Below, piece after piece: positions 15,141 through 64,000 of a stretch of DNA of 64,000 nt; the stretch's first letter is position 1, and every line of letters begins with the position of its first letter. The DNA lies in contig JAIQDT010001656.1 in the NCBI GenBank assembly GCA_021521415.1, positions 372,001-436,000 of the forward strand, in the 5' to 3' direction. This DNA is from Bidens hawaiensis (lineage: Eukaryota > Streptophyta > Magnoliopsida > Asterales > Asteraceae). Below the pieces are notes generated by a model. That model ran no database searches, was not told where the DNA came from, and saw nothing but the letters and a program-made list of their open reading frames with translations. The position numbers and the translations under genes were made by a program.

Positions 15141-17892
15141 TGTAAGGCCCCGATCCCGGTGCCTCACTTTTGACGTTGGATTTACTCATAAAGACAGTTC
15201 TAGATATCAGAGTTAATTAAAACTTTACGCGGAATATAAAACTTTCATAACATTACAATAATACTTCATAACTTGTCTTAAAACATTCTTGTCTTTCAAA
15301 AATAAAACATTGAATATAAAACGTCATGAGTCTTCAGATGCCAGACTCTTATTCTTCTGCCACAAGTCCCCGCTCAAGCCAGCTGTCTCACCCTACTCAC
15401 ATGCGTGCATACTAAAAGTCAGCTACACTGAGTGAGTTCTAGATAATAATACATCATACAATACATACATTTACCTTCAATTATGCATCCGAAGATACAT
15501 AATAATTACTTTACTAACTTACTTTCATTACATAATTTCATACATACATTCATAATTTAATATTTTCATAATATATAAGTACTGTCCATTCTATCTCAGA
15601 TATTATGTTTGAACCCGTCTCGGATCTAGCCGCGTCGATACATCAATTAAACAATACGAACACGAGATCGATCAATACATTAAATAGATATTTTATTGAT
15701 AAATAAGGAAGAATACATTATTGTATGGAATAACTTATGGAGAGCATAATAACTTAGATCTAGGATCTCTCACATCTCTCTTATGTGTGATCACTTTACA
15801 AATGAGCATGGATTAGCCTTTTTATAGGCAATATGCTCCAATTCGTTAAGTTAAGCCTAATTCGTTATAACTTCATAACGAATTAGACTCCATTCGTTAT
15901 GCTTCCATAACGAATGGTAATACCTTAACGAACTAGCCCTCATTCGTTATGCTTCATTAACGAATGGGCTTATACCTTAACGAACTAGTCGTTAACTAAC
16001 AAATGGGTCTCATTCGCTATACAATCCATAGCAAATGGGCCATTTACATTAAATATACAACCTAGACTATCTATAAATTATTCGATCGCTACGGATACGA
16101 AAACCGTGCACTAACATATTATAAGGGTATGATCCCAGTGTCCTTGTCTATGTCAGATATTATAAGGGTCTGATCCCTCTGTCCTTGTCTATCTCAGATA
16201 TTATTAGTGTCTGATCCCTTTCTTGTCTATCTCAGATATATTAGGGTCTGATCCCTCTTTTCTTCTCTATCTCAGATATTATTAGGGTCTGATCCCTTTC
16301 TTCTCTATTTTAGACATAATTAGGGTCTGATCCCTTACTTCTTCATCTTCGTACATACTATCTTTCTATAACCATAACATACATATCATTCATACATATT
16401 CATATGTTGTACATATATATATATATCATACACATTCATCTTTCATATGCATACCTCCCTTGTTAATATGTGCAATATCCGAAGATCGTTCATGTACCGA
16501 CAAGCTTTCATTCCCATTCAAAACATAATATATATCACATAAATCATACATGGCATACACTTACCATTTAAGGCAAGTGTATTAACTATCACATCGAGTA
16601 TGCACACAGCCCCGAAAACATAACAAGGTTGTGGGGCTAGAAACTCACCTGAATGCGGTTACGTTCACCGTTAATAGTTATTCCCTTCTTTAGTTGGGCG
16701 CACTGACTGTATATCAATTACACGTATCAATTAACTATCACTAACCATATCGCGTTTCTAGTCTAATTATAACCCTCAACAAACAGGGGTCTGGGGGCAG
16801 CGCCCCTGACAACGGGGTTCTAGGGGCGGCAAACCGCTAGCGGGGGTACAAGGGGCAGAGCCCCTGACTGGGGTTAAGCTACTTCGTTAACTCATTCTTC
16901 ATAACGAATTAAGCCTGATTTGTTATCGGATTCGTTATCTTATCATGCCTTGATTCTTTATCTAGTTCGTTACCTTATCATAACGACTTGGGTAAGTAAC
17001 GAATCACTTGACTCGTTATCATATCATAGCGAATTAGGTGAGTAACGAATCACTTGATTCGTTATCTTAATATAACGAACTGGGTTAGCTAATTCGTTAT
17101 CTTGTCTTAACGATGGGCAAGTAACGAATTACTCGATTCGTCATCTTGGTCTGTTCATCATAACGAATTAGTATCTGTTCTTATCCAAACTTTGACTAAA
17201 AGGGTCAAAGTCAAAATTGCCAAGAACAGTCAACACTAGATTCGCGATTAAGCCTCAAATCTTGATGAAATAACACGAAAATGGTGTCAATGGACTCGCA
17301 ATCTCAGTGCCTATAAAGCCTAACCATCCAATCCTTCATACATCGCGTTTACACAGTCCGATTTGTTCATTTATAAACCCAATTATTCATTTAAAAAATT
17401 AACCCATCAATTGTTAATGGATTTCAGTAGGATTTGTTTTGTTGGATCCGTTTTTAACATACTCAAACAGATATATGATTTCTAGACGTAATCCGAACCT
17501 AAACGCACAAGTTCTCGATATAAACGTACCTTAAACGAGTCGGTTTACGAACATGGTCTAGTCTTGATGTTTTTTTGGTTCATCACCACAATCTAGCACA
17601 AACGAGTTCGGGTTTTCGCCTTCGGATCTTGGCTCGGGTTATATGATAGTGTTTGTGTGTGTTTTTGATGGTGTAGGCTATGGTGTAGAGATGGATAAAA
17701 ACGGAAAGGATTAGGGTTTAAGGGGTATTTATACTCCCTTAAGCCCATGGACCTATGGCCCATTCCATCTCTTATTCCATCTTCTAAAGTCCAAGCCCAA
17801 CCTTCTACAGTTTATTATCTCAACCGATAAACGACACATTATAAAATAACGAAATTTATTTTATTATTTCTTATCGAAAGTAGGATGTTACA
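15141..17892 (-). mobile_element. Gypsy (G1/G2 family) solo LTR with TSD CAAAT
   Basis: It starts TGTAAGGCCCCG and ends GGATGTTACA. The target duplication CAAAT is present at 15136-15140 and 17893-17897. No internal region remains, so this is a solo LTR left by recombination between two LTRs. Minus-strand sense features include a TATA box TATAAATA at 17726-17733, a splice-donor-like AGGTGAGT at 16643-16650 and a hairpin at 16558-16579. A minisatellite with AGGGTCTGATCCCT units lies at about 16117-16340, and an AACGAAT/ATTCGTT word array at about 16876-17175. A copia solo LTR is nested at 15606-16116. Confidence 0.92.
15606..16116 (-). mobile_element. SIRE-like copia solo LTR with TSD TATTA
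   Basis: Read on the minus strand it starts TGTTAGTGCACGG, the same start as the SIRE A LTR at 18133, and ends TTCAAACA. TATTA duplications lie at 15601-15605 and 16117-16121. A TATAAAAAG box lies on the minus strand at about 15828. Between the box and the LTR start are hairpins built from ATTCGTTAT and ATAACGAAT, for example perfect 12-base arms at 15857-15868 and 15875-15886. It sits inside the minisatellite of the host gypsy LTR. Confidence 0.92.
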
Positions 17893-17897
17893 CAAAT

Positions 17898-18132
17898 AAA
17901 GCAAGTAAGCAAATAGCAAGCAAGGCATAAACTGATATATATACAAGGATTAAACAGTTGTGGTTTTTGAATAGTAGATAATATATAAATACTGTAAATA
18001 CGCATATGTCCCCAAAAGATTTGAAGTAAGTAAAAATATGGGAGTGAAATACTCACCTTAGAAATTAAGCAAGAGATAATGATTCAACAAGAAAGATAAT
18101 GGTAGATCAAGCTCTTCGATAATTATACCGAC
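17898..18132 (-). mobile_element. Gypsy LTR, second segment of the 14570 LTR
   Basis: This continues the LTR after the solo-LTR insertion; 17893-17897 is the right copy of the CAAAT duplication. It matches the reverse complement of about 570-700 in the left LTR. It is cut off at 18132 by SIRE element A, so its far end is missing. Confidence 0.6.
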
Positions 18133-18702
18133 TGTTAGTGCACGGTTTTGTCATCTCGAGTCTTTGTAAATTATCGTTTGTAATTATTATTATTTTAATG
18201 TTAAGGATATTTATGGAAATTAAGTTAGTTCATTAATGTAAAGGCTAATTCGTTAAGGATGTTTAACGAATTAGCCAGTTCGTTTTTTGTAATGTCCATT
18301 CGTTAAGGATGTTTAACGAATGGACTGTAATTCGTTATGTATGTTCCCATTCGCTATGGAATGTTGACGAATGGGGGCATAACGAATCAATGATTCGTTA
18401 TGCTTTCCTTTTGAGTCTTGCAAGTTAACGAACTGGAGCCAATTCGTTACTGGATGTGTAACGAATTGGTCTCCATCGTCTATATATAGGGTGTTTCATT
18501 CCCTCATAATTTAAGTTTTGAGTTTAACGTATCGAATCTCTGCAGAAATACTCTTTCGCTCAATTTTTCCTTAATCTATTAGTAATATACATACTAGAAT
18601 ACTAATACATATATATAATTAATTATAAGCAGATCATAAACTAGATCCTTAAGGTATTAGATCTAATCCGATAATCGATATTGATTAGATCTAACGTATT
18701 CA
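18133..18702 (+). repeat. 5' LTR of SIRE A, with a hairpin chain in U3
   Basis: The LTR starts TGTTAGTGCACGG and ends GTATTCA. A TATA box, TATATATA, lies at 18481-18488. Upstream (18243-18469) are inverted repeats built on TTCGTTA/TAACGAA. Perfect arms lie at 18243-18256 with 18263-18276, 18294-18306 with 18313-18325, 18377-18389 with 18391-18403, and 18439-18450 with 18458-18469. The first two share the loop GGATGT although their outer arm bases differ. The primer binding site TGGTATCAGAGC lies at 18707-18718, just outside. Confidence 0.88.
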
Positions 18703-20023
18703 CGAGTGGTATCAGAGCATTTAGGTGTTAGATTACTCTTAATTAAACGTTATTTAATTTGTAATTGATGTTGATTTGATTATTTTTTGGTTTTATTAAG
18801 TATTTGTTTTTTTTTCTAAAAATGATAATTATTATTTTACTTTTTTTAATTATAATATTTGTTTTTTTATTTTAAAAGTGAAACAAAGCGATTACAATAA
18901 AGTGGCAGGCAAACAGGAAACAAGCTGCGCCTCAACCCCCTTTTGAATAGCAAAGCGAATCCTACTAAAAACGAAGGTTTGGGACCTAGGAGCTGAAGAG
19001 GTTCCGTGTACGATACGCTGAACCCGTGTACGATACACGAGATAAGTGTGTTAGTTGAATTTGGTAGAACTGACGGTTGATACTGTTAATTATGGATTGA
19101 ATTTTGTTCGGATTGTGTTTGGTAAATTTTGAGGAACGTGTGTGTGAATTGAATTGTGATTTGAGGTTGATTGAACTGGTTTTGGACTGGATCTATGAAT
19201 GTACGGAACAGGGGATGGTTTTGTGGTAATTAAAGTTTGTTTGATCGATTAAAGGTTACGAGATAAGTGTATTTGGGTTCGTGTGTTGTTTCCAAGCAGT
19301 TTGAGTTGCTATTTGGCCGATTTGGTGTTGTATTGAGGTAGTTTTACGTATATTTAGTTAGGTATTTGGTTGATTTTGAATCTGGGAATTTGCAGATTTC
19401 TGGAATTTGCCTTGAAGATTTGAATATCTGCTTGAAGATTCGTTAATGGCTATATTTCGTTATAGTTAATTCGTCACCCACGTGTCGTAATTTGTTATCA
19501 AATCTGAACAGATTCGTGCCAATTCTTAACAGATTCGTGCCAGGTGGCGAGTTGGTTACAACTAACTAACAACCTTGTTCGTTATCAGCTGTAGCTGATT
19601 CGTGCTTACTATTCTTAATTCGTGTTCCTAGATTCGTTATATTTTCATCATTGATTCGTTATCAATTCGTCTATTGATTTGTTCAGTGATTCGTTACTTA
19701 TTCGTTCTTGATTTGTCATCTCAATTCGTTAACAATTCGTTGTTGAAACGTTATACTGATTCGTCAGTGATTCGTTAGTGATGTGTCTTTGATTCGTTAC
19801 TGATTCGTTATCATCTAATTCGTTCCTAGTTCGTCCTTATGCTATTCCTGATTCGTTACTCAGATCTCATCTGAATCGTTAAGTTACTATTCTCAATTCG
19901 TTATCCATTCTTCATTTAATTCATCAAAGTTACTGTTCTTGATTCGTTACTATTCTTGATTCACTAATTTTCACTTTTAACCCTCAAGTTTGTACTTTGG
20001 TTGAATTTGAACTTGTTAATTAA
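18703..20023 (+). other. Leader of SIRE A, with ATTCGTTA word array
   Basis: A TGGTATCAGAGC primer site is followed by 1.3 kb without a gene. From about 19437 to 19975 the word ATTCGTTA and near variants (ATTCGTC, ATTCGTGC) recur at high density, mostly in one orientation. It is the same word as in the LTR hairpins. Confidence 0.8.
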
Positions 20024-33415: not shown

Positions 33416-33839
33416 TGTTGGTGCATGATGTCAGTAGTTCAGTGTCGAGTGTCTGTAATCGTGTTAGTTAGATTTGAGTTTTGTATGTAAGCGAAGTTAC
33501 TAACAAGTTCGCTTAAATGGGCGAACTTGTTAGACAAGCGAAGTTAGGGACAACTTCGCCTGAACATACCAGGCGAAGTTGTCGTGTCTATATAAGCCAT
33601 TTGAATACGGCTTAGTCATTAGAAGTTAATAGAATCAGAGTTTATTTCGTGTATTCGAGTTAGAGAGTTTTGTATTCAGTGGTCATTGTATCACGTGTTT
33701 ACGGTTGGAATACAACGTGTGTTTGGTTATCGTATCGTGTGTTAGCTCGTATTGTTTTCTATACTCGTAACGTCTTACGTAGGGATTCCGCACCTACGTA
33801 GTACGCGATATCTCGTGTAGATCCGGCTGGGAACCTACA
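33416..33839 (+). repeat. 5' LTR of SIRE B, with GCGAAGTT hairpins and TATA box
   Basis: A TATA box, TATATAAG, lies at 33589-33596. The U3 part at 33491-33583 holds six copies of GCGAAGTT or GCGAACTT in both orientations. A perfect 14-base hairpin (33549-33562 with 33570-33583, loop AACATAC) ends just before the TATA box. The same arrangement in the 3' LTR lies at 45431-45523. Confidence 0.93.
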
Positions 33840-34351
33840 ATTGGTATCAGAGCTTTTGCTCGATTGTGTGGTTCGGGATTATCACGCGGGTATAGAAATC
33901 GTTCCGTTCGACTATTCGCGGGACGAGTTTTCTGAGCTTTTGTGCTATACTCTCCTCCTACAATCTTAAACAACCCTTAACACCTTCACAAACCTCGAAA
34001 AAACCAGAAATCTAATCTGCAGAAAGTTCGTGTTCATCAGGCGAAGTTGCCGTCACTGTTAGTAGGATTTCGGCGAAGATATAAGGTTAAGCGAAGTTAT
34101 CCACAACTTCGCCTATCTCTTCAAGTTCGCTTACCTCAAGCGAAGTTACCCACAACTTTGCCTACCTCCCAAGTTCGCTCAACTTAAGCGAAGTTATTCT
34201 CAAGTTCGCCAATCAGGCGAATTTAAGAAAGTGAGCGAAGTTACAAATTCACGCGAAGTTAAGTTTTAAGCGAAGTTATCCACAACTTCGCCTACAGTGC
34301 TGTTTGAAAATAAATTTTTTTATTTTCGGATTTCTTTGAGTTTAGAAAAAG
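33840..34351 (+). other. SIRE B primer site and leader with word array
   Basis: The primer site TGGTATCAGAGC lies at 33842-33853 and matches the 3' end of initiator methionine tRNA. From about 34037 to 34291 the leader carries GCGAAGTT and AACTTCGC copies in both orientations, ending shortly before the gag ATG at 34352. Confidence 0.88.
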
Positions 34352-36789
34352 ATGTCTTCGATAAACATTACCGAACTAGTAAAGATGGAAGTAGAAGCAG
34401 GTTCGGCTACAAAGGCACCTAAGATGCTTAAGAAAACTGATTATGTAGCGTGGAAAGATCGTTTTGAACAATATGTCAAGTATCAAGATGCCAAGATGTG
34501 GGTGTGTATACAAGATGGTTACATTCCACCTACTGCTGAGTATGAAGGTCGTGATCAGATCAAGAAATACAAAGAGATGGAAGAAGAGGAGAAGAAAATG
34601 TATGAGGCAGAAAGCAAAGCTCATGCAGCAATTACAATGGCTCTTCCACAAGAGATACTTCACACCTTCCGAAAGTATAAAACTGCTAGAGAGCTTTGGG
34701 AAGCCTTGAGAACCGGTTTGAGGGCAATGTGGGAATTCGTGCCTCGAAAATTAAACTTCTAAAAACCCAATTCTCGGTCTTCAAGTATCTGAAAAATGAA
34801 TCACTTGATGATATCATCACTAGATATTATCATCTGATGACTGAACTCAGCAACTATTCAATTGCTTACAAAGAAGATGAGATAGTTGAAAAGCTTCTTG
34901 ATGCTCTCCCACCGAAATGGGAGATGTATACTGTGTTGATGAGAAAAGATAAAGACTTTGCTGACTATGACCTGGAGACAGCAGTTAACAAGCTAAGAAC
35001 GTTTGAACTGAACATGGTACGAAAGGAGACACCTACCGATCAGGTTCAAGATCCGGGTATGTATGGTGCAAAGGTTAACTCTGGATCAAGTTCGAAAACT
35101 GAATCATCTGCTTATTACTCTAAGGGAGAGTCAGGCGCTAGCTCAACACATGAAGGACATGTATCTCTCAACATGAACGGTGATGTGTGCTTTGTAGCTG
35201 GAGGATCAAATGCTTCTCAACCTCAAGCGACCAAGAGTAGTTTTTCCCCAAGTGTGTCAAACAACAACTACTCGAAGATGCCCATGAGTGTTAAATCTGC
35301 TGAACAGCAGTTTGCTCTCTATGCATCCTTTATTGCTTCGTATGAGAACTACATTCAGGGTAAGATTGTTGATCCTGCAATTTTGGATGAAGACTATGAT
35401 CAGATCGATGCTGATGATCTGGAGGAGATGGATCTGCAGTGGCAGATGGCTATGATTGTCAGAAGGGTGAAGAGGTTCATGAAGAAGACTGGCAGGAAGT
35501 TTGTCGGAGAGAGGCCAGGGTTTGATAAGTCGAAGGTACGCTGTTACAACTGTCAGCAGAATGGCCACTTTGCAAAAGAATGCAAAAATGAACGTGTAGA
35601 ACGCAGTCAAAACAAATCTACACAGCAAAGTGGTAGTGGTAATGACTATAGAGCCATGATTTCCAGACAGAATGAGGAGTATAACTGGAATCTGCATGTT
35701 GAAGAAGTATTTGAACAGGCCAATTTGGCAAAAATCGAAACTGCAGATAGTGAGAAAGGAACTGGCGAAAATGAGGCTCACATGGCAGATGTAGCAGACC
35801 AGCTCTCCGAGGTAAGTACCGAACTCCCTTGTACTAAGTGTGAACATCTGTCTGAACAACTGACAACTCTAACTGATCAGTTTGTTAGTTTGGATGCGCA
35901 ATATAAAACTTTAAAAGAAGATCATCATTTCACTAAAGCTAGAGAAAATAGTTACAAAGTAAAAATTAAAGCTAGTGAGAAAGATATTAAAAGTCTTAAA
36001 GCAAAGCTTGCTGAAAAAATTCAAGTGATTGATCTTAGCTATGAGGTTCTAGAAGAAAAAACCAAACTAATAGCTGAAAAGGAAAAACAGATAGCTGATC
36101 ACTAGGTAAAAGTGGTGGAACTTAATAGGAAACTGGAGCAATTCAGAAATTCCTCCGCTATACTTGATCACCTCGTTAGTGATCAAGGTTCCCCAAAAAG
36201 GGGAGGAATTGGTTATCATGAAGTTCCACCACCTTTCAATCATAATTACACTTATGACCCTAGTAATCAGAAATCTGTTGATGTTGACTATGGTCAGACA
36301 CTTCCAGTTCAAGTTACTACTAAAGAACCAGAAGTTAGTAAGCCTGTTGCAAGTATTAAGATTTCTGCTCCGAGTCCTGTCTCATCTAACTCAGACAAGT
36401 CCTCTGAGTCGTGTGAGACAAAACAAGAGGAAGTGTTACCGAAAAGTGGAGAGAAAAATAAAACACCTGAAAAGAAGTCTCCACTAAACCCGTATGTCCC
36501 GCCATATGTGAGACAAACGGGCAGTAATACAGCCTCAACATCTAAGACAACTTTTGATAAGAAAGTTGGACATAGGAGTTGTTTTAGATGTAATCAAATA
36601 GGACACCTTGTTGCTGATTGCCCTCTGAAGCAGAAATTCAGAGGTGTGAGGACTTCAAAATCTGAGAAAAGAACTAACGGTAATCAATATAATGGTAAAA
36701 ATGAAAACCCATCAACTTTCAGAAAATGGACTAATTCAGGTTTTCAAAAAAATAGATCCATTTTTACACTGCTAACAACCAAACCTTAA
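34352..36789 (+). pseudogene. SIRE B gag, nearly intact but broken
   Basis: ATG 34352 opens MSSINITELVKM and a gag domain with the YVAWKDRFEQY motif. A single-base loss near 34706 shifts the frame into 34696-36105. That frame holds LEEMDLQWQMAMIVRRVKRF (about 35410-35480), a zinc knuckle CYNCQQNGHFAKEC (about 35542-35583) and a coiled coil (about 35840-36160). A TAG at 36103-36105 interrupts the coiled coil. The same frame then continues to a second zinc knuckle CFRCNQIGHLVADC (about 36582-36623). A further shift near 36760 leads toward pol, and a TAA at 36951-36953 separates gag from pol. That last stop may be native, because SIRE elements are known for a gag/pol stop that is read through. 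Confidence 0.88.
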
Positions 36790-36962
36790 GTAATAATTCT
36801 TTTAATTCACAAAGGTTTGGATGGCCTCATAGTCAATCCACAAGAAGGTATCCTGTTAGGGCTCACAGAAATTATTATGATACTAACTTTGGACAGCCAA
36901 GGTACGGAATGTATCGACCCAAGACCAATCGGTCTTGGGTCCCCAGATTTTAATCATCTGCT

Positions 36963-39900
36963 TTGATCGTGCAGGAACAGTTGAACAGGGCTGCCAACAA
37001 TCAATGGGTTGTGGATAGCGGCTGTTCCCGGCACATGACTGGTAACAAGAAATTGTTACACGACTTGAAACCTGTTCAAGGAGGAAGAGTGAGTTTCGCT
37101 GGAGAGAGCGGTGGAAGGATTACAGGAATAGGGACGGTGTCGAATGGAAAGATGACTTTGGAGAAAGTAAACTTTGTTGAAGAACGGAAGCACAATCTGC
37201 TGAGTGTTTCGCAGATTTGTGACAAAGACTACACCGTACATTTTACAAAGAATGAAGCGCTTGTGTTGTATCCTGGTTTTAAGATACCAGAGGATTGGAT
37301 TATTATGAAGGCTCCAAGAGTGAAGAATACGTATATCATGGATATGAGATCGATAGAGATGGCCACAGAAGAATCGTGTCTTCTGTCAAAAGCAACTGAA
37401 TCGGAGTCCGAGTTGTGGCATTGGAGAATGGGGCACATTCATCTTTGGAAAATGAACTACCTTGTCAAAAATGGACTTGTGCTGGGTGTTCCATTGAAGA
37501 ATTTCAACTTTGAAGACAAATGTTTATCATGCAAAAAGGGAAAGCAACACAAGAAATCCCATCACACCAAGAAGGTCAATTCAATTGTCAGTACCCTAGA
37601 ATTACTTCACATGGATCTCCTCGGTCCCGTGAATGTAAGAAGTCTAGGAGGAACATCGTATTGCTTGGTGATCACTGATGATTTCTCTCGATATTCCTGG
37701 GTATATTTCCTGAAGTCAAAGGATGAAACAGTGCAGATGGTAAAGAATTTAATTACCAAGGTTGAGAATATCATGGGGAAACAGGTTAAATTCATCAGGA
37801 GTGACAATGGAACTGAGTTCAAGAACTATGAGATGGAGATCTTCTGCTTACAGAAGGGGATAGAACACCAATACAGCGCACCATATACACCTCAACAAAA
37901 TGGAGTGGCTGAGAGGAAGAACAGAACTTTAATTGAAGGAGCCAGAACCATGCTGGCTGATTCGAAACTTCCCGTGGTGTTTTGGGCTGAAGCTGTTGCA
38001 ACAGCCTGTTATATCCTTAATAGAGTGTTAACTGTTAAAAGATTAAATAAAACCTGTTATGAACTTATGCATGGGAGAAAGCCAAACTTGAGTGGTCTTG
38101 AACCATTCGGGTCCCCATGTTCGATATTAAAGACCAATTCTAAATTTGGTGAAGTAGCCGACGAAGGAATCTTAGTCGGATACGTTGTTGGGACTCCCAA
38201 CAGACGGGTCTTTAATACATCGAACAGAAAGGTTGAGGTGGTGTGTAACACTGATATCACAAGTTACAAATCACCAAAACCAAGCTCGGGACCCGCTGGG
38301 GTTTTCGACTATGATAGACTTTTTAAATCTTTTAACATACCTTATCTGGATTTTGCAGAAGTTGAGGAAAGAATTGCTACGAAGATGATGTGCGATGAGG
38401 AAGACACTTTGGTGCAACGACCACAGTATGATGGATGTCAGCCTTCCTCGTCAAATGCTGTCAATACCCCTGCTGCCTCTACTGAAGAAGAATTCATCAA
38501 TCCGTTTCACTCTCAAAATCAATCACCCATTGATGAGCTATCTTCGAACTTGGAAGATAATCTGAATGTCAGTTCAGTTCCGACTACGATAATTCACAAA
38601 GATCATCTTTTGGAGAATGTGATAGGTGATCTGTCCGCCGGTGTACAAACAAGACAAAGCTTGAATAAGCACACCTATGTTTACACAAGCATTAAATAAT
38701 CAGGCATAATCAACGAGTGCTTGTACACCTGCTTTATCAGCCAGATTGAACCAAAGAACTATCAAATGGCTCTTAAGGACAGCTCGTGGGTCGAAGCCAT
38801 GCAAGAAGAGTTAGCTCAGTTTAAGAAAATGGAAGTATGGAACTTGGTTGCAAAACCAAGGAATGTGCATGCGATAGGCACGAAATGGGTCTTCAAATGT
38901 AAGAGAGATGAGAAAGGGATTGTTATCAGGAACAAGGCGAGGCTGGTTGTTAAAGGCTTTGATCAACAAGAGGGGATTGATTACAATGAGGTGTTTGCTC
39001 CTGTAGCAAGATTGGAAGCCATTCGTTTGTTTTTGGCATTTGCTGCTCATAAGGAGATGAAGGTCTTTCAGTTGGATGTGAAGTGTGCGTTCCTAAACGG
39101 TAAAGTCGATGAGGTTGTGTATGTCGAGCAACCTCCGGGTTTTCCTGACCCTGACTTTCACGATCACGTGTACAAGCTAAGTAAAGCGCTGTATGGACTA
39201 CATCAGGCACCTCGTGCCTGGTATTCAACCTTATCAGATTACTTGCTTGAGAATGAGTTTGAAAGAGGTAAAATTGATAGCACATTGTTCTTCAAGAGAA
39301 AGGGTAGCGACTTCCTACTCGTGCAAGTCTACGTGGACGACATTATCTTTGCTGCATCAAAGGTCGCCATGTGTCAGGAGTTTGAGGCCGTCATGAAGAA
39401 GAGATTTGAAATGAGTGCTATGGGTGAACTAACTTTCTTTTTAGGATTGCAGGTTGATCAGAAGAAAGACAGGATGTTCATTCATCAGACGAAGTATGTC
39501 CATGATGTTCTCAAACGCTTCAAGATGGAGGACAGCACTCCATATGATACTCCAGTCTGCGTCAATCACAAATTGGGTGCTGATTCAGACAACGATGCAG
39601 ATGTGGACCCAACCCAATATCGGGCTATTATAGGTTCTTTAATGTACTTAACTGCTTCTAGGCCTGATATAATGTTTGCTGTTTGTCTTTGTGCACGCTT
39701 TCAGGCAAGCCCAAAAGAATCTCATTTGAAGGGTGCGAAGAGAATACTGCGGTATCTCAAAGGCAAGCCGAAGCTGGGGTTGTGGTACTCGAAAAGAGGA
39801 GACTTGGAGCTAGTCGCTTACACAGATTCTGATTATGGAGGGTGCAATCAGAGTCGGAAGTCTACAACTGGTGGATGTCAGTTTCTTGGTGGCAGACTGG

Positions 39901-40277
39901 TGTCGTGGCAATGCAAGAAGCAGACCTCAGTCGCAATTTCAACCTGTGAAGCAGAATACATGGCAGCATCCAACTGCTGCTCCCAGGTTCTTTGGATTCA
40001 ACAACAGTTGCGCGATTATGGTCTGAATTTCTCACTTACTCCTATTTGCATTGATAACACTGCTGCTATCTCAGTAACTAACAATCCCGTTAAGCACTGT
40101 AAAACTAAACATATTGACATACGTCATCACTTTATACGGGATTGTGCTGAGAAGAAACTGATTGAGCTCGAAAAGGTTGACACGTTAGATAATTTCGATG
40201 ACTTGTTCACGAAAGCGTTTGACAAAACTAGATTTCAAAACCTTGTTGAGCTGAATGGGATGATCAATCCCGAGTAA
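36963..40277 (+). pseudogene. SIRE B pol, one nonsense codon
   Basis: The two parts are in the same frame and are separated only by a TAA at 38697-38699. Part 1 has protease DSGCSRHMTGN (about 37014-37046), the zinc region HWRMGH..CLSCKK, and the integrase core with the triad in HMDLLGP, RSDNGTEF and AERKNRT. Part 2 (38721-40277) has RT with [19 protein letters not shown] and YVDDIIF, then RNase H with [23 protein letters not shown] and DDLFTKAFD. All catalytic residues I can place are present. The stop lies between integrase and RT, so RT would need read-through. Confidence 0.93.
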
Positions 40278-42393
40278 CCATGTCATATGTTTGTGTTTGA
40301 GAAAAAAAAAAAAAAAAAAAAAACGTCACTATCGCTTAGAATTATTTCGGTTGCCTCAGTTTGAAGGACATGACTTCGGATATGTTTGGTCCTCATTTCT
40401 ACTTGTAGAATATGAGGATAGCCATTAACCAGATGACTGACAGTGACCGGGGCGGTGTATGATGAGTTTTCATTCTTTCGTTGAAAATTAGTCGATCATA
40501 CTTAGTTAGAAGGACACATACTAGTATGTGGTCGGTCCAGCTGATCCATTGGATCTTCGGGATAGCCGTTTTCCTGAAGACTTTGAGTTGGTCGGGGCGA
40601 TTGATGTTAAAATTTTTTCTTTTTGGGAAATGAAATTATTTTTCAAGTCTACTACTTCGTAAGAAGTTACTTTACTATGATTAACAGAAAATTGATCCAA
40701 CCTTGGAAAATGATAGATATACTGATTCTGTGTGCTTAACTAGTGAATTTATTAGGCCTAAAAGACTTTAGAACAGTCATTGTATGTCATGGTAGCTTTT
40801 TATGGTGCGTAAAAGTAGAAGTGATACTAACTAAATCTACTCGATTTTATGTGGAAACTCCTTAAGAGTTGTGCATGTCTTCATACATATCTTTCCGAAT
40901 GATAGGCAGAAAAGCGATTACCCAGTCATACACGAGCCCGTGAGTGTTCTGATTCCCGTGAAGATAGAGTGTCAAGACGCTGCAGTGATCCAGATTCGGG
41001 ACTTGTAGTTATTTTCTACTTGAAGTTGTGTATATATTTATAAAAAAAAAAAACAAAAAAAAAAAAAAAAAAAAAAAAAACACTTCTGGAGTTCATAATG
41101 TTAATGATTGTCAATCAAGACGCAAGAAGATGAACAGGAAGCAGAGTCTAAGATCGAAGAGTAATTACTACTTAATCAGACACTACGGGTCGAGGTCAAA
41201 TCGGGGTGACTTGGGGAAAGCCAAATACGCCTTGAGAATAGATAGGAGGCATCATAATCTCTGAGTTGTTGCCCACTTAAGTTTTGAGCTTAATTGAACC
41301 TAACTCGTATCACAGAAACGATGAAAACCATTTTAAGTAGATTACCTGCTTACAACCTGTTTCTTTATGTCATAATACAGCTGAACACGGATCTGTGTGA
41401 CAGTCACGAAATTAGTATGATTCCTGTTCGGATCTTTTCTAAAACATGGTAGTCCCTGTCGAGACTGAAATTTGATCCTGTGTATTTTAATTTTTCAAAT
41501 TTTTGTTACTTTTGTAATTGTTTGATTTTATACCTGGTTACTTGGTCTTGATCGTATCATTTAACGCTTTAAAGGATGTTTTTAAAACTTTATTGAAAAT
41601 TGTTAAAAGTGTAGGGGTTTGTTTTGTAAATACAGTCGAACTTGTTGATAACTTCGCCTGGAATAGGCGAAGTTATCGATAACTTCGCCTGTACTAACTT
41701 TGACCCTATATAAAGAAGTTTTAAGGTCAAACGATTTATTATTTTCCAAAATACCAGCGAACTTACTCTCTGTCAACCTAAGCGAACTTATCGATCAGTT
41801 TTTCTCGATCTTCTGTGTTTAACCTTACTTCGATTCAAATCAAATTAAAGGTGTGTAGGGTTCGATTATCATATTATCATTGTCTATTGAGGTTAATCAT
41901 AGGTCGTTTCGACTCGATTCTCCACCTCGTCTTTCGAAGCCTTAAACACCCGATTTCAAACTTGTTTTTACGTGATAGTAAACTACTTGAACGTCTAAAA
42001 CTTCATAAAATCATGTATTTTGGAGTCCTCGATCTCCGAAATCATCATCTACACGTCGTTCAAAATCCCTAACTGTTGCCGATTCAAATTCGGCGAAGTT
42101 ACAGTTTAGGCGAAGTTATCCGTAACTTCGCCTGAGGTTTAACTTCGCCTGATTATTGATTTTGAAATAGTTTATGAGGCGATGTTGTGATTAGGCGAAG
42201 TTATCCGTAACTTCGCCTGGACCATTTTACTTAACTATTATCAGACGAAGTTCAAGTTGAAGCGAAGTTGTTTCCCAACTTCGCCCCACATTTAACTTCG
42301 CCTATACAGAATTGATCACAACTTCGCTCATGGTAACAGGCGAACTTGTGATTCGCTTTGACGTTTATTTAATTTAACCTGTTTGTTGCAGAT
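40278..42393 (+). other. SIRE B spacer: two conserved folds, then GCGAAGTT palindrome array
   Basis: There is no gene in the 2.1 kb between pol and the extra ORF. Two structured modules lie at 40361-40460 and 40508-40605 and recur in SIRE A. A-runs lie at about 40302-40323 and 41041-41080. From about 41636 to 42355 the spacer is packed with GCGAAGTT words. It includes a perfect 26-base palindrome at 41665-41690 and two identical hairpin units near 42108-42133 and 42193-42218. The spacer ends in a pyrimidine-rich stretch and TTGCAG (AG at 42390-42391), a good splice acceptor two bases before the next ATG. Confidence 0.85.
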
Positions 42394-43509
42394 ATGGCTG
42401 CTGTTGCTGGAGCAGGTGGTGCAGGCGGTGATGACGGAGGTGATCACAAGAGACAGTTCTTCCCGGGTCACAACATGTACATAACATTAGACCCGAAGGC
42501 GAGCGGAGTTGATGATTTCCGCGAAATCATAACATTTCTTTTACGCTCGAGGATATTCCACGAGATTACAACAACTCTGCCAATATCCTTGCCCAATATT
42601 GAGGATTTCTGGCAGACAGTGGAATACGACTGTAGAGTCGAGCCCCCGGTGATGCGCGCAACAGTCAACAATCAGATTGTTCAGTTCTCTTCTGAACAAA
42701 TCCGGGCGGCTTTACGATTTGGGAATGAGACAAGGGATGACCCAACAGAGTTTGTAGCTCCTTTCCGTGATGGAGCGTTTTTGAGAATGGGATACTCTGG
42801 TCCCTTGGGGGATACGCAGAGGAGGAAAGGCTTTTTACTTGACCAGTGGCGCTTTCTCATGCATGTTATGATCGTTTGCATGTCAGGGAGAAAGGCGGGC
42901 ACTGATGGCATGGGCGCGACCATGCAGTCAGCGATGACTGCTCTGACTTACAACAAGCGATTCAGCTTTAGTCAGATGGTCTTTTATGAGATTGATCGTC
43001 AAAGAAGAGCGATGGCGCGTGAGCGATTCATCATGTATCCAAGATTCCTACAAATGATCTTGAATCATGTTGCTCCAACGCTTCCTCAGCGCCGTCCGAT
43101 CCGATACGTTGAGAGTGTGAACAAACGGATCTTCGCCCAATGTAGATCCTCCAGTGCGAGGAGCAAACCTGAGCTCCGTCCTCGACATACTCCACTCTTT
43201 GGGTACTTGATCAACCCGGGGTATGTGCCTGCACGAGGGGACGAGTTTAGGGACCCAGCACCACAAAAGGCAGGAGCACCTCAAGCTATACCTGCTGCTC
43301 CTGTTGTGTCACCGGAGGAGAACGTGGACCTTGATGCAGAATTTGGTGGTCAAGGCTTCTTTGATATGGATCGGGTGGATCCAGAGGAAATCGTACAGGT
43401 CCCGGTTGAACGTGCTTCGACTGTGAATGTTACTAGGGCAGCTACAACGGTGGCTGGCTCAGATTCTGATGATGAAGTGGCAGAGGCAAGAAGGATTATG
43501 GTAACTTGA
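42394..43509 (+). CDS. SIRE B extra ORF, part 1 (371 residues)
   Basis: This frame opens with ATG directly after an acceptor-like TTGCAG, which suggests expression from a spliced RNA as for an env-type gene. It begins with an Ala/Gly-rich stretch and then has a globular part (residues about 20-275) with motifs such as MYITLDP, FLMHVMIVC and YPRFLQMILNHV. It ends in an acidic tail (SDSDDEVAEAR). I see no signal peptide or membrane helix, and no enzyme motif I recognise. The TGA stop at 43507-43509 is probably secondary, because the same frame continues as acidic and basic low-complexity sequence to TAG 43579 and on into part 2. Similar ORFs accompany SIRE elements, but their role is unknown. 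Confidence 0.75.
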   Translation: MAAVAGAGGAGGDDGGDHKRQFFPGHNMYITLDPKASGVDDFREIITFLLRSRIFHEITTTLPISLPNIEDFWQTVEYDCRVEPPVMRATVNNQIVQFSSEQIRAALRFGNETRDDPTEFVAPFRDGAFLRMGYSGPLGDTQRRKGFLLDQWRFLMHVMIVCMSGRKAGTDGMGATMQSAMTALTYNKRFSFSQMVFYEIDRQRRAMARERFIMYPRFLQMILNHVAPTLPQRRPIRYVESVNKRIFAQCRSSSARSKPELRPRHTPLFGYLINPGYVPARGDEFRDPAPQKAGAPQAIPAAPVVSPEENVDLDAEFGGQGFFDMDRVDPEEIVQVPVERASTVNVTRAATTVAGSDSDDEVAEARRIMVT

Positions 43510-43581
43510 GAAAGACTACATGGGAAACGAAAGAGAACAGTTGATGATAGCGAGTCTGATTATGAGGAAGAAGTACAATAG

Positions 43582-44769
43582 TTGATCCGGAGGTCAAGAA
43601 GGGAACGAATAGGTGCAGGATCAGGAGCCGGTGAGAGCTCTAGGGTGGTACGTTTCACTCCACCAGCACTATCCGGTATGACAATGGTTCCCTCATCCCT
43701 ACAGGTTACAAGGCCAAGCGCTACGGGTGTTCCCGTGGTGGCTACCTCGTCTACTTTTGGCCTCCCACCCACTACCTTCCAACTTTCGACTCCTGAGATC
43801 GTTTCATTGCCGCCTCCGACTGTTACTCCATCGGAGGTCGTGGCACAATTTATAGAGTCGACTGTTGTGGCCACTGCAGGGCTATCGGTGACGATACCAC
43901 CTGCGGTTACGTCTATTTCTACTTCTGAGGTCCCGGTGACATCGGAAATCCCTCCTCAGTACACTCAAGATAAATCACGTATGAGGTTCGATTTCGATGC
44001 AACCCTATCAGACTCTGAACGAATAGCAGCACTGGAACGGGTCGTGGCAGAGCAGTCAAGGATTAATCTTATCCAGACCCAGGCTATTCAGCGCCTAGTT
44101 ACAGAGAATCAGATGCAGTCGTCCCTGCTGGTACAACATGGAAAAATCATAGATGCTTTCAAGGAGTTCTTGGCATCTCAGGGGGAGACGAGCTGTAAAG
44201 GTGACGAGTTGAGGACCAAGAGACGAAATGATAGAGACGATGATCCCAATGCATCTAAAGATGCAGGTGGTGAGTTGCCAAGAACTGATCAAGCTCTTGG
44301 AACTTTCACAACTCAGGGGGAGTTGACAACTGCAGCTGGTGGTGATGATGTGGTGGTGGTGGATGTAGAGGAGATGGATGATGTTTTGGTTGGTGATGAT
44401 GATGTACTACCGAGTGATGTGATAGAGAAGATTGGTGAAGATATTGTGATTTATACAGAGATAGAAGAGGGAGAGATAGTAGAGGAGAATGTGGAGCATG
44501 AGATACCGCAAGTCGAGAACGTAGATATGAGTCAACAGATTGGAAATGATGAGTCTGAATGGGAAGAGCAGCTTAGATGGAAGGAAGGCTATGCTCAGTG
44601 GTTCGTCAAAACGAAGAAACCGGCGGTCCCTACAATGTTTAAGAAGAGTTACAACATTAAAGGCTATGCTGAAGCGAAGAAAGGGATTATTTGCTGGATA
44701 TATGATGAGCAGTTGAGGCTCTTCGTGATTAAAAGGTATGACGGTGTTCAGTACTTTAAAGGATGTTAA
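43582..44769 (+). pseudogene. SIRE B extra ORF, part 2 (395 residues)
   Basis: It is in the same frame as part 1 across two nonsense codons. It has a basic start (RRSRRERIGAG), a Ser/Thr/Pro-rich linker and a predicted coiled coil (RIAALERVVAEQSRINLIQ, about 44010-44066). A strongly acidic region follows (about 44340-44510), then a Trp/Lys-rich part (EWEEQLRWKEGYAQWF). The order coiled coil, acidic tract, aromatic C-terminal part matches the relics at 1379-3487 and 12232-14569. The frame is lost near 44760, where part 3 takes over. Confidence 0.7.
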
Positions 44770-45284
44770 GATCGTTGAATACACTGCTAGAATGTGAAGT
44801 GAAAGACTTAGCCAGATTGGGATTGATAAACAGAAGTGACGATAATATGGCTAGAGTCATTGGGAAAATTGTGTGGAAAGAGAGTATAAAAGAGAAGAAA
44901 TTTGAGCTGTTGAAGCCACAAAAGGGAAAACTTGTTGAAGACAAGGATAGAGGTTTGAGAGCTGATGGAAAGCCTTGGATGATTATGAAGTATAAACCGA
45001 TCCGGTGTTTGAAAGAAGTACCGATGAAGCTAATGCCCAATGATGTGCTTAAAGACCTGAAGTGGTGGTTTGTAGATTGTGAGACAGCTGAGGCAGTGAT
45101 GGAAGACGAAGATGAACAAGAGCTGCTTAGAGTGTACGATCCGATGCACTTGGTAAACTTATCGCAAGCTGATTTGCAGGTGTTGAATGACAAGAAGATA
45201 TTTTATATTCCTGCTTGGAAAGACGAAGCGAGGAAATATCAAAGAGTTGTCTCGGTTTGTGTTCGAGAAGGAGTGCATGCTTGA
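44763..45284 (+). pseudogene. SIRE B extra ORF, part 3 (C-terminal)
   Basis: This is the shifted continuation of part 2. It is Lys- and Leu-rich (LLECEVKDLARLGLINR, VKLMP-like and LQVLNDKKIFY segments). LECEVKDLARLGLINR has the same place and similar pattern as LAGICKENLLKLYK in the relic at 1379-3487, which supports one conserved C-terminal domain. After the stop the sequence runs to a purine tract (CCAAGGGGGAG, about 45343-45353) next to the 3' LTR. Confidence 0.65.
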
Positions 45285-45355
45285 AGATAGAAGATTGAAG
45301 ATTACTAGACACGTGTTTGAAGCTAAAGAGATGAAGCTACTGCCAAGGGGGAGTC

Positions 45356-45779
45356 TGTTGGTGCATGATGTCAGTAGTTCAGTGTCGAGTGTCTGTAATC
45401 GTGTTAGTTAGATTTGAGTTTTGTATGTAAGCGAAGTTACTAACAAGTTCGCTTATATGGGCGAACTTGTTAGACAAGCGAAGTTAGGGACAACTTCGCC
45501 TGAACATACCAGGCGAAGTTGTCGTGTCTATATAAGCCATTTGAATACGGCTTAGTCATTAGAAGTTAATAGAATAAGAGTTTATTTCGTGTATTCGAGT
45601 TACAGAGTTTTGTATTCAGTGGTCATTGTATCACGTGTTTACGGTTGGAATACAACGTGTGTTTGGTTATCGTATCGTGTGTTAGCTCGTATTGTTTTCT
45701 ATACTCGTAACGTCTTACGTAGGGATTCCGCACCTACGTAGTACGCGATATCTCGTGTAGATCCGGCTGGGAACCTACA
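45356..45779 (+). repeat. 3' LTR of SIRE B
   Basis: It is 424 bp, with three differences from the 5' LTR. A TATA box lies at 45529-45536, with word hairpins upstream. It is followed by the duplicated AATAT. Confidence 0.95.
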
Positions 45780-50950: not shown

Positions 50951-51027
50951 ACTTGTAAGGCCCCGTTACCGGTGCCCTACTTTGTACGTTGGATTTACTC
51001 ATAAACACGGTTCTAAATATCAGAGTT

Positions 51028-51536
51028 TGTAAGTCCCTCCGGGGCGTCGCTGATCGATACGAGATCCGCACGAGGTCTAGGAGTGCGGAATCCTCCTAGA
51101 TTCGTTTATTGGTGTAGAAGACGAAGAACACAATTACACACAAACACATACACGAACAAACACACGAATGGGATAAACACATCTGCAGATCTTTTATATC
51201 ATAACCGAAACACATTACATACCAAACACGTAAACAAATGACGGCCGACCCGAGGTGAGCTCTACCTCGGGCCGTCCCACACGACTCTCCCTCTCGGTTT
51301 CTCTCTAGACAATTAAACTGATCACAAAACACTCTGATTTTCTGGATACCAAACCTAAACAAAACACACATATATATATAGACAAAACTTCGCGGGCTTG
51401 GGCTGTAGGCGAAGTTGTTATAACTTCGCCTAAGGCGAAGTTGTTCTAACTTCGCCTATGGCAGAACTTGTTACAACTTCGTACTTCTTTTCCGCTGAAC
51501 AGAATTGCATAGCGACGGTCACAAAATGCACCAACA
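51028..51536 (-). mobile_element. SIRE-like copia solo LTR with TSD GAGTT
   Basis: On the minus strand it starts TGTTGGTGCATTT, close to the SIRE B LTR start, and ends GGGACTTACA. GAGTT is duplicated at 51023-51027 and 51537-51541. It carries two hairpins of GGCGAAGTT/AACTTCGCC (51406-51432 and 51433-51457) upstream of a minus-strand TATATATATA (about 51370-51381). It lies 74 bp into the G1 LTR. Confidence 0.93.
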
Positions 51537-52885: not shown

Positions 52886-53052
52886 CGAACTTGAATGTAA
52901 GCGAACTTATATGTAAAAGAACATAATAGCGGAGAACTTATATGTAAGCGAACATATCAGCGGCAAACTTATATGCGAGCGAACATAATAGCGGCGAACT
53001 TATATGTAAGCAAACATAACGTTAGGCGAACTTAACTGAAGGCGAACTTGAA
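52886..53052. repeat. GCGAACTT word array in G1 5' LTR
   Basis: Repeated GCGAACTTATATGTAAGCGA-like units and variants (GCGAACATA, GGCGAACTTAA) occur. Word spelling differs from SIRE B (GCGAAGTT) by one base. The 3' LTR of G1 has lost this region. Confidence 0.88.
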
Positions 53053-53976: not shown

Positions 53977-54166
53977 CTCCCTTAAGCCCATGGACCTTAG
54001 ACCCATCTTTCCTTTTTGGTCCATAATTAATTACATCTAATTAGCCTACTTATCATTCCATCTTTATTATTTTACTATTTTTCTATTAACTCAAATAAAC
54101 TTTTCGGTCTTAAGTAAATAATATATTAATTATTCATTCTTAGAAATTTCGGGATGTTACACGGGT

Positions 54167-55288: not shown

Positions 55289-57234
55289 CGCTGTTTCAGT
55301 CTATTCACCTGCGTGCCTACTAAAAGTCAGATACACTGAGTGAGTTCTAGCTAATAAAATAACATACTTACATACACATACACGTGTCTGAAGGTAAGTA
55401 TTACATACTTAAATTTTTAATCATTCTTCCATATATATACTTTCATTCTTTCATACTTTCTTTCTTTAACATACACAGTACGTCCATAACTATTCTTTCA
55501 TTATAAAGAGCATTCCGCGCTACATACCTCGGATATTATTAGGGTCTGGTACCCTCCATCCTCGAATATTATTATGGTCCGGTACCCTTCATCCTCCTCG
55601 GATATTATTAGGGTCTAGTACCCTTCTTTCCATGCAACTATACTTTAATTTCATACATACCCTGCTTTATCATTCATGCATATTTTACACACAATTACAT
55701 ATTCTAACACTTACCTTCCTTGGTGATACGTGCAATATCCGAAGATCGTTCACGTACCGACAAGCATTCATTCATAACCTCGATAACCATCACACATATC
55801 ATATATGGTATACACTTACCATTTAAGGTAAGTGTATTAACTATTCACATCGAGTATGCACACAACCCCAAAAACATAACAAGGAAATGGGGCTAGAAAG
55901 TCACTTGTAGGCGATTCCTTTATGAATTTACTGTTATGCCCTTCTTGAGCTGTGCACGGCTAACTGTGTATTAATCATAGTACCAATTAATTGCTTCTAG
56001 TTATACCATACTTCTAAGTTGTTATAACCCTTAGCAACAGGGGTCCGGGGGCAGCACCCCTGGCAGCGAGGTTCTAGTGGCGGCAGCCCCTTGTGGGGTC
56101 CAAGGGGTAGAGCCCCTGCTGGGGTTAAGCTGCCAGGTCAGATTGGAAAAATATTATCTTCATTAATAAGTCTTTACTAAAAACCTCATCAGAAAACTGA
56201 AATTTAATTATTTAATCAAATCAAATCTTCGTTTTAAACGTTACCTTTCATCATTAATTATTTACTTATTCTTATCTTAACCGTCATATAAGTCCATCTC
56301 TATCGTTTACGTAAGTATGCGCTGTTTATCTTTCGTTTATTTCTGAAAATCATTTAAGTTAGCGTATAAGTTGTCATCGACGTATAAGTCCTCCATCTGG
56401 CATATAAGTCCTATTGGCATGTAAGTTCTTTAGGGTATAAGTTCTCTCTGGCATATAAGGTACTACCAGCGTGTAAGTGCATCTAGCGTATATGTCATAC
56501 ATATACGTCACATACATACACGCTATCATACATATATGTGGCTTACATATACGCTGCATTTACCTTATACGTTGCAGATACTTATGCAGTCCATCATACT
56601 TATACGGTACATACATAGACGATGCACTTATACGGCGTATATGTGCAGGTCGGCCCCCTTTTCACGCTTTTTTAAGGTTTTTCTTCGATTCTGGCGCCGT
56701 CAGCAACCGTTAACCACCATGGTTAGTCGAGGTTTGATCATTTATGGCCTTTGGTAGCTTCGCGGTGTCCAGATATGAGCTACTGTGGTCCTTAAGCTCG
56801 TTTTTGGTTGATTAAACTCCCGAATAAAGCTAGATCTAGATCCAAACGGCTCGTACGGCATCACGGGGCTGTGGTGTCGGGTTCTACTATGTTGGTACAG
56901 CTGGGATAAATCATTACTTACCTTTTGGTCTCGGATCGTTGAATATAGTAGAGTAGAGAGTGTTTGGCTTAAGTGTGTGTCTTTGAAGGTGTAGGCTATG
57001 GTGTAGAGATGGATGGAAACAGAAAGGATTAGGGTTTAAGGGGTATTTATACTCCCTTAAGCCCATGGACCTAAGGCCCATATTTCCTTTTTGGTCCAAT
57101 TTTTAATTCCATCTAATTAGCCTACTTAACCTTTCACCTTTATTATTTTATAATCTCTTTACTAACTCATGTAAACTTTTCCATCATAATTAAATAATAT
57201 ATTAAATATTATTCTTAAAAAATTCGGGATGTTA
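55289..57234 (-). repeat. 3' LTR of G2, left end truncated
   Basis: Homology to other LTRs of the family starts in mid-LTR (CTATTCACCTGCGTGC), so about 250 bp of the outer end are missing. The inner end GGATGTTA is slightly decayed. It holds minisatellite units GGTCTGGTACCCTTC at about 55540-55625, a hairpin at 55813-55834, a donor-like site mutated to AAGTGACT near 55899-55906, a GCGTATAAGT-type word array at about 56305-56640 and a TATA box at 57044-57051 (minus). Confidence 0.85.
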
Positions 57235-61889: not shown

Positions 61890-62315
61890 TCGTATTCTAA
61901 AAGGAAACACAAATGTCATCCCTTAAGGAACTATTTAGTACAAGGATAGTAAGGATAACAGGTAATAACAGTGGCCAGCTGTGATGAGCTAATCACGTTA
62001 CTTTCCGTGTCCTATACACTTTCCCTTGTGAGTCTATTTGTGTTGGTTCTACTTGTAAATATTTAGGCATCTAATAGTTCATATAACCATACACTTCTAT
62101 ACCTAGCGATTAGGCTAACTTCCTTACACATTCGTACATTATACATGAAATTAATCATACACTTTACATCTACTGAGCTTGCTTCAGTGACACATGGAAT
62201 TCTTGCACTGGCACTTTCTTTCTTTTCTTACTTTTCTTACTTAAGTCCCATTTTCAGTTCGAGTCTAAGCATGTAGGATGCTTAATTCTCTCTAACTTAT
62301 GCTTTGATACCAACT

Positions 62316-64000
62316 TGTAAGGCCTCGTTCCCGGTTCCCTACATTGGCGTTGGATTTACTTATAAACACAGTTTTAAATATCAGAGTTAAACTAAATTTT
62401 CGCGGAATAAATAAAACTTCAATCATACATTATAGTGCATTCAAACTTGTCTTTAATAACATAACATATAAATATCTTATTTAAACATCATGACAAATCT
62501 TCAGATGCCAACTTCCTCAGTTCCTGCCATGTGTCTCTCAAGCAAGCTGCTTTAGTCTATTTACCTGCGTGCATACTAAAAGTCAGCTACGCTGAGTGAG
62601 TTCTAGTTAATCAAATAACATATTTACATACACATACACGCTCCCGAAGGTACGTATTACATACTTGAACTGTTAATCAGTCCCTTTCTACCTTGATTAT
62701 TATTAGGGCTCAGTCCCTTTCTGACTTGAGTAATATTAGGGCTCAGTCCCTTTCTTCTGTGCCTAACCATCCCTTATATTCATTCATAACATACATATAT
62801 CATTCATACATTTTATATAACATTCATATCTTTAATTATAACCTGACAGTACATGCAATATCCGAAGATCGGTCACGTACCGACAAGCAATCATTCATAT
62901 CCTTCACATAAAACATATATGGAATACACTTATCACTTAGGATAAGTGTATTAACTAATCACATCTAGTATGCACACAGCCCCGAAAACATAACAAGGAA
63001 ATGGGGCTAGAAACTCACCTGGATCCTATTTCACTCTCCGTTAATCGCTATCCCCTTTCTTTAATTGAGCTCTGCTAACTGTATATGTGTTACACGTATC
63101 AATACTTGTTTTAGGTTACACTTACTTAGAATATTTTATTCTCTAAACCCTACTATATTTAAATTTTTGGTTTTTATATTCTTTTAATGATTCCTTTCTT
63201 TCCTTCTATGTACTCAAAGTGTACTTGTAAGCGGGCTTGATGATTGAATTTGAACTCATTATTGCAAGAGAGTTCTGTATAGTGATCGACTATAAGTATG
63301 TTATCGAATTACAAGTAATCGAATGAGCATGTATTCGAGTTGCATAAATGTAATCGAATATCATTGTGATCAACTCTCAATGTAATCGATCCACAATGTA
63401 ATCGATTCACAGAGTTGTATTCGAGTTCTATTATGTAATCGAATCTACAAGCGATCGAACACATTCTTGTAATTGGGTTCCTTAAAGTAAGCGATTTTCC
63501 TCATTGTATTCGAGTCTTTCACAAGTGATCGATAGGTCCAAAGTAATCGAATCCCCTTTGTAATCGATTACAAAGAGCATTTCTTCCTACATACCTCGGA
63601 TATTATTAGGGTCCGGTACTCTCCATTCTCGGTTATTATTAGGGTCTGGTACCCTCCATCCTCGGATATTATTGGGGTCTGGTACCCTTTTCTCCATGCA
63701 ACCATACTTTCGATTCGTACATACCCTGCTTTATCATTCTTGCATATTTTATACACAATTACATATTCTAACACTTACCTTCCTTGGATATACGTGTAAT
63801 ATCTGAAGATCTTTCACGTACCGACAAGCATTCATTCATTACCTCGATAACCATCGAACATATCATATATGGCATACACTTACCATTTAAGGTAAGTGTA
63901 TTAACTATTCACATCGAGTATGCACACAGCCCCGAAAACATAACAAGGAAATGGGGCTAGAAACTCACCTGTAGGATATTCCTTTCTGAACTCACATGTA
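62316..64000 (-). repeat. 5' LTR of G2, runs off the window, internally duplicated
   Basis: It starts TGTAAGGCCTCG at 62316. One block has units AGGGCTCAGTCCCTTT (62700-62755), a hairpin at 62927-62948 and a donor-like site at 63013-63020. A GTAATCGAA word array follows (about 63230-63565). Then a second, different copy of the same block begins near 63568, with AGGGTCTGGTACCC units, a hairpin at 63877-63898 and a donor-like site at 63963-63970. The second block resembles the 3' LTR of G2 more than the first does. Confidence 0.8.

Follow-up and report, generated by a model that had tools for sequence, protein, structure and literature searches.

In a 64,000-nucleotide stretch of the Bidens hawaiensis genome (assembly GCA_021521415.1, contig JAIQDT010001656.1, positions 372,001 to 436,000; hereafter the window), arrays of short CpG-bearing words occupy the long terminal repeats (LTRs) and other non-coding parts of SIRE elements, which are Ty1/copia retrotransposons, and the same words recur in the LTRs of Ty3 elements. 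The words are enriched over shuffled sequence and conserved relative to the spacers between them, and in a two-clade comparison they follow the clade of ORF3, an extra open reading frame (ORF) of SIRE elements. It is probable that these words are sites for a sequence-specific DNA-binding protein made by SIRE elements, which Ty3 elements would be able to exploit. Elements are numbered E2 to E10, with coordinates in Table 1.

The existence of word arrays was confirmed by a scan of the window in which the commonest 7-mer of each 400-bp interval was compared with shuffled sequence. A preliminary description of this DNA had proposed such a comparison and had reported twelve stretches that each repeat one word; CpG-bearing 7-mers with at least five copies occurred only at the stretches it named, while the maximum in shuffled controls was mostly 2-3 copies. 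Three of the named arrays were not picked up by the scan. Two are short U3 arrays (33491-33583 and 45431-45523), each with four exact GCGAAGTT and two GCGAACTT per 106 bp where about 0.01 of each is expected, and the third is 56305-56640, where the commonest 7-mers lack CpG. The arrays are thus real, but at this last one the spelling reported, GCGTATAAGT, occurs once, and the actual repeat is the looser CGTATAAG with five exact copies. Spelling within an element is not strictly uniform, as had been described, since E5 mixes GCGAAGTT and GCGAACTT. The words do stand in both orientations in nine of the 12 arrays (the E5 3' U3 array being scored like its 5' copy), but in a single orientation in the E2 leader (26 of 26 matches), E8 (9/9) and E10 (7/7). 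Coding sequence, said to be free of the words, is so for GCGAAGTT and GCGAACTT, whose exact copies in the window (35/35 and 14/14) all lie inside arrays, but not for AACGAAT, with 38 copies in arrays, nine in five coding stretches delimited by the analyst, and five elsewhere. The 12 arrays have CpG observed/expected ratios of 1.25-1.81, versus 0.55-0.75 in the coding stretches and 0.74 in the remainder. The 7-mer scan found no word array in a copia element at 4005-12232 (LTRs 98% identical, 1336-codon open frame from gag to reverse transcriptase, RT).

Comparison of the 6-mer profiles of 11 arrays with 1000 random window segments revealed two clear groups. The AACGAAT group consists of E2 U3, the E2 leader, E3 and the Ty3 LTR E4 (z >10 in each of the six pairs, with 0 of 1000 random segments equally similar), and the GCGAAGTT group of E5 U3, the E5 leader, the ORF3 spacer and E7 (all six pairs z >12). 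The Ty3 LTR E8 falls with the latter group (z 8.1, 6.6, 3.9 and 2.1 to its four members) and is also similar to E9 (z 6.0); the profile of E10 resembles none of the other arrays compared. The term "element-specific", applied to the words in the preliminary description, is therefore too strong, because the same words are common to SIRE and Ty3 elements. Word-to-word spacing of 13-18 bp exceeds random placement in E3, E4, E2 U3, E5 U3, the E5 leader, the ORF3 spacer and E8 (P ≤0.032), with no such excess in the E2 leader, E7, E9 or E10.

The gene order of E5 is of the copia type, with Pol_BBD, gag_pre-integrs and rve at 36954-38696 followed by RVT_2 at 38700-40274, and an extra ORF, ORF3, lies in two pieces between pol and the 3' LTR (42394-44766). 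As in the SIRE/Sirevirus lineage, a symmetrical repeated motif stands upstream of the LTR TATA and upstream of the extra ORF. The motif of E5 has CGAA as its core and lacks the CGG-CCG core, which was not treated as lineage-defining because a published exception, Tnd-1, exists (PMC2829016). In all five SIRE-type U3 arrays (E2, E3, E7 and both E5 LTRs) the words stop 6-15 bp before the TATA. E2, whose word is AACGAAT, has no ORF3 in the window, and no second ORF3 relative was found in the six frames of the window. E5 (33416/45780) and E7 (51027/51534) are inserted at positions no more than about 10 bp apart in the homologous Ty3 LTRs E6 and E8, with target duplications of AATAT (5 bp) and GAGTT respectively; the duplications and the ends of E5 were read by eye. 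The array remaining in E6/E8 is of GCGAACTT, which is related to the word of the inserted E5 and E7, GCGAAGTT.

For the first 291 residues of ORF3, structure prediction gives a fold like that of VANC21 in complex with its target DNA, the resemblance being to the DNA-bound region of VANC21. A Foldseek search with a second model did not place 9lnj among the 50 matches listed, and profile searches of PDB sequences did not recover VANC21. By sequence, DUF1985 gave no match at E up to 10 in sets of 10 and 24 proteins, and it was not in the best 25 of the 35 families matched by 43 proteins, 26 of which match Transposase_32. Named relatives of ORF3 occur in Smallanthus, Mikania, Helianthus and Tanacetum, and P0014, from Tanacetum, combines the end of a copia RT frame with an ORF3 domain; the host of ORF3 is a copia LTR element, not a VANDAL Mutator-like element. 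Scans of viral contigs for RT and Ty3 LTRs returned no matches.

The association between word and ORF3 was followed across the 3.47 Gb host genome in two samples, namely 20 clade B loci chosen from 85 places matched by the sunflower protein P0006 and 20 E5-family loci picked by word 26-mers. Within 1.1 kb upstream of ORF3, all 20 clade B loci carry AACGAAT (3-23 exact copies) and none carries GCGAAGTT; at three of them (L038, L041 and L049) the best of 20 shuffles equals or exceeds the count of the top CpG word. In clade A, E5 and five of its 20 word-picked relatives carry 13-17 GCGAAGTT and no AACGAAT. ORF3 identity goes down to 52.7% within clade B and averages 31.3% between the clades. Between these two clades, word and ORF3 clade thus correspond. 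A search with P0001 aimed at a third clade returned 135 places 44-48% identical to P0001, which were taken as clade A by the overlap of at least two with places found in another search. Words cluster just ahead of ORF3 at every word-picked locus, and at 14 of the 20 a second cluster lies beyond ORF3, at the putative 3' LTR position. The whole genome contains 3143 forward and 3141 reverse copies of the E5 26-mer and 2202 and 2229 of an E2 24-mer; the backward control k-mers of both had zero occurrences. The logic of the VANDAL/VANC system, invoked in the preliminary description, receives independent support from the predicted fold together with this two-clade link, and the recognition word co-evolving with a factor, also proposed there, is partly supported overall.

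An internal promoter ahead of ORF3 is possible. TATA-like sites occur in the ORF3 spacer of 9 of 19 E5-family pieces, and in E5 itself few words lie ahead of the site at 41707 and most behind it. A TATA lies 141-173 bp ahead of ORF3 at 14 of the 20 clade B loci, and there the words are upstream of the TATA.

Conservation of the words bears on whether the arrays arose by neutral spread, a short unit being multiplied by slippage or template switching during reverse transcription. Tandem Repeats Finder (TRF) does identify repeated units of 11-50 bp in several arrays. Units of 46-50 bp stand in 2-3 copies in E3, E4 and the E5 leader; E7 has a 26-bp and E8 a 31-bp unit, and the units of the E2 leader, of 11 and 35 bp, are loose. 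Tandem duplication, earlier named as grounds for refutation, accounts for parts of the arrays. An initial diversity test was rejected as evidence because its word columns had been selected by conservation. In its place, 18 E5-family loci were aligned to E5 (L022 and L024 of the 20 being left out), with words defined in E5 and the 4 of 13 exact words inside the picking 26-mers dropped. Words differ at 2.4% of sites versus 31.8% for spacers, and CpGs in words at 0.9% versus 31.7% for other CpGs; the aligner may anchor on words, yet words and spacers alike have low gap fractions (2.7% and 4.6%). In clade B, sampled by protein match, words and spacers differ less (14.6% versus 27.4%), with word divergence below spacer divergence for 19 of 19 reference copies, which are non-independent, and CpGs in words differing less than other CpGs for 17 of 19 (L056 was not a reference copy). 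Because words are conserved so far beyond spacers, in the E5 family most strongly, simple tandem duplication is rejected as the full cause, and concerted replacement, also raised in the preliminary description, is unsupported as a process without selection. Unlinked places and another superfamily moreover carry these words with no long stretch of sequence in common, and neutral spread is scarcely credible as an explanation of the arrays.

The internal region between E9 and E10 encodes Ty3 pol domains (RVP_2, RVT_1, RNase H, H2C2 and SH3_Tf2-1), and E4 and E6/E8 were assigned to Ty3 by LTR similarity. The label Tekay for these elements is that of the preliminary description; no chromodomain was matched in their scanned open frames, which are broken. 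The LTR ends are alignable between elements (72-94%), but the central ~0.9 kb of the LTR in E4, E8 and E9, here called the cassette, mostly is not. The word array sits in this variable cassette, downstream of the TATA. The 3' LTR E6 has no cassette: a comparison of E6 47258-47261 with E8 52842-53755 shows that exactly the variable cassette is missing, and E8 is the likely 5' partner. Outside the cassette the Ty3 LTRs also hold another, dissimilar tandem array, with units of 38-42 bp (46167-46724, 51917-52385 and 16116-16335).

A Ty3 LTR 26-mer from outside the cassette occurs 7469 times forward and 7528 reverse genome-wide. Cassette pieces of 551 bp were taken at 20 places, every fifth of 100 listed (contigs C1, C3 and C4 only), and in 18 of them a CpG word reaches P ≤0.01 against 200 shuffles. 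The word is AACGAAT in eight (L059, L063, L064, L066, L067, L068, L074 and L075) and GCGAAGTT/GCGAACTT, the A word, in another eight (L057, L060, L062, L065, L069, L072, L073 and L076); six A-word cassettes have many 12-mers in common and are hence non-independent. L071 has GATCGAAT, L070 a GC-rich CACGGGG repeat in place of a CGAA word, L061 a weak A word (P 0.055) and L058 no CpG word. The GATCGAAT of L071 and the TAATCGAAT of E10 may form a third Ty3 word class, for which no matching ORF3 clade was found. No long high-identity stretch joins Ty3 cassettes to SIRE arrays. The best alignments of 24 cassettes (65-87% over 23-173 bp) are of the kind that shared words give, so recent capture of SIRE arrays by Ty3 LTRs is rejected as a general cause. 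A nested SIRE-type LTR may be present in L061, which matches E5 U3 at 78% over 83 bp. The loci retrieved before the Ty3 cassettes contained no Ty3 LTR motif.

The arrays could alternatively act as RNA structure, in the form of packaging or dimerisation hairpins or of small-RNA templates. Perfect palindromes whose flanks differ yet are complementary occur in U3 and in the ORF3 spacer, and adjacent opposite words, when pooled, show greater outer complementarity than non-adjacent ones (P 5e-5); this complementarity is highest in E2 U3, E5 U3 and the ORF3 spacer, with none extra in the E5 leader or E4. Strong RNA folds are found in E2 U3 (z -13.0), E5 U3 (-7.4), the E5 leader (-6.2) and the E4 minus strand (-5.8), and maize Sirevirus palindromes attract small RNAs (PMC10760457). 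However, the single-orientation E2 leader (271 nt folded, z +0.34) and E8 (z +0.11) show no excess structure, which rejects a hairpin-only role, and nine of the ten listed A-word Ty3 arrays are likewise single-orientation (L061 being the exception). The feature common to the arrays is the word and not the hairpin, and RNA structure is a very improbable explanation of them.

Sites for host transcription factors are a more serious, though still unlikely, explanation, in which each SIRE clade or Ty3 family recruited one of a few host factors, ORF3 serves a different role and the link between clade and word reflects shared ancestry. Such sites would fit the end of the U3 words just before the TATA in all five SIRE-type LTRs, the occurrence of the words in two superfamilies and the mainly stress-related factor sites given by a PLACE analysis in 2010 (PMC2829016); the two clades, moreover, amount to one contrast. 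Host recruitment does not, however, predict that ORF3 folds like a DNA-bound anti-silencing protein, nor that the U3 word recurs in the leader and in the ORF3 spacer. The analysis identified no such host factor, though no search aimed at one was made.

If the words are instead sites for a SIRE-made protein, ORF3, long called envelope-like (env-like) and predicted to adopt the fold of the VANC21 part that contacts DNA, would recognise the word of its own clade, GCGAAGTT in clade A and AACGAAT in clade B, at the U3 promoter, in the leader and in the stretch ahead of ORF3 itself. Such binding would counter silencing or activate transcription, and Ty3 elements, with the same two words in their fast-changing LTR cassette, could use the SIRE factor. 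The joint proposition, that the env-like gene of plant Sireviruses encodes no envelope but a sequence-specific, VANC-fold anti-silencing factor, that the palindromic motifs of 2010 are its sites, that a change of factor between SIRE clades is matched by a change of word and that most Ty3 LTRs carry the words of both SIRE factors as a shared anti-silencing economy, has roughly even odds of being correct. If true, it would assign a function to genes that bear the envelope-like label with no role yet proven, explain the co-occurrence of Sirevirus motifs with the env-like gene, and extend sequence-specific anti-silencing from one DNA transposon group to abundant plant LTR retrotransposons, with unrelated elements using common binding words. 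The role of the env-like ORF becomes directly testable.

Table 1. Word arrays and the elements carrying them in the 64-kb window.
Feature	Position	Strand	Remarks
E3 SIRE-type LTR, reverse; AACGAAT array	15841..16035	-	directly upstream of minus-strand TATA 15826
E4 Ty3 LTR (~15145-17892); AACGAAT array	16876..17175	-	in the variable cassette of the LTR
E2 SIRE 5' U3 array, AACGAAT palindromes	18248..18467	+	stops 14 bp short of TATA 18481; primer-binding site (PBS) 18707
E2 leader array	19438..19948	+	PBS-gag interval; 26 words with ≤1 mismatch, one orientation
E5 SIRE element	33417..45779	+	LTRs 99.3% identical; gag, integrase before RT, ORF3
E5 5' U3 array, GCGAAGTT/GCGAACTT palindromes	33491..33583	+	stops just short of TATA 33589
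E5 leader array	34041..34291	+	PBS-gag interval (PBS 33842; gag frame open from 34346)
E5 spacer array upstream of ORF3	41636..42352	+	internal TATA-like site 41707
ORF3 N-terminal piece	42394..43506	+	first 291 residues: predicted VANC21-like fold
ORF3 second piece	43582..44766	+	in frame with the N-terminal piece, behind two in-frame stops; no Pfam match
E5 3' U3 array	45431..45523	+	TATA at 45529
E7 SIRE-type solo LTR (~51027-51534), reverse; GCGAAGTT palindromes	51386..51481	-	upstream of minus-strand TATA 51380
E8 Ty3 5' LTR (50954-54164); GCGAACTT array	52886..53052	-	variable cassette, 31-bp period
E9 Ty3 LTR; CGTATAAG-type array in cassette	56305..56640	-	weakest of the set
E10 Ty3 LTR fragment; TAATCGAAT array	63230..63565	-	

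Sirevirus repeated motifs (RM boxes) with the same layout were published by Bousios et al. in 2010 (PMC2829016). Like the present arrays, RM boxes are multi-copy, element-specific palindromic CpG repeats that form CpG islands and are sited both ahead of a conserved TATA in the LTR and ahead of the env-like gene; the motif was absent from the classic copia elements compared there. Unlike the present words, 12 of the 13 published RM motifs have the CGG-CCG core, and the accessible part of that paper lists no leader arrays, compares only Ty1/copia elements and does not link the env-like gene to word binding. Maize Sirevirus LTRs likewise contain a palindrome-rich cis-region, whose palindrome is also found in Helitrons, another class of transposable element (TE); in contrast to the reading favoured here, the maize palindromes were interpreted as small-RNA hotspots, and maize Ty3 elements are described as having no obvious structure peak (Bousios 2016, via PMC10760457 and PMC5311732). 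A 2026 sunflower paper (PMC12844716), in the portion available, names VANC as an example in its discussion of LTR elements and describes CG methylation as lowered in the central portion of SIRE elements. A literature search covering few subscription papers, and these sources in part, turned up neither a Sirevirus ORF with a reported VANC-like fold nor a report of words shared between Sireviruses and Ty3 LTRs.

From the sequence-specific anti-silencing of VANDAL/VANC the present system differs in that the host is an LTR retrotransposon and not a Mutator-like DNA transposon, that the words contain CpG and that DUF1985 is not matched by sequence. As in VANDAL elements, the words are short, non-coding, fast-changing between relatives and apparently matched to an element-encoded protein (PMC5735166, PMC10398659), the predicted ORF3 fold resembles DNA-bound VANC21, and the sharing of a motif with an unrelated TE has a precedent in AT9TSD1.
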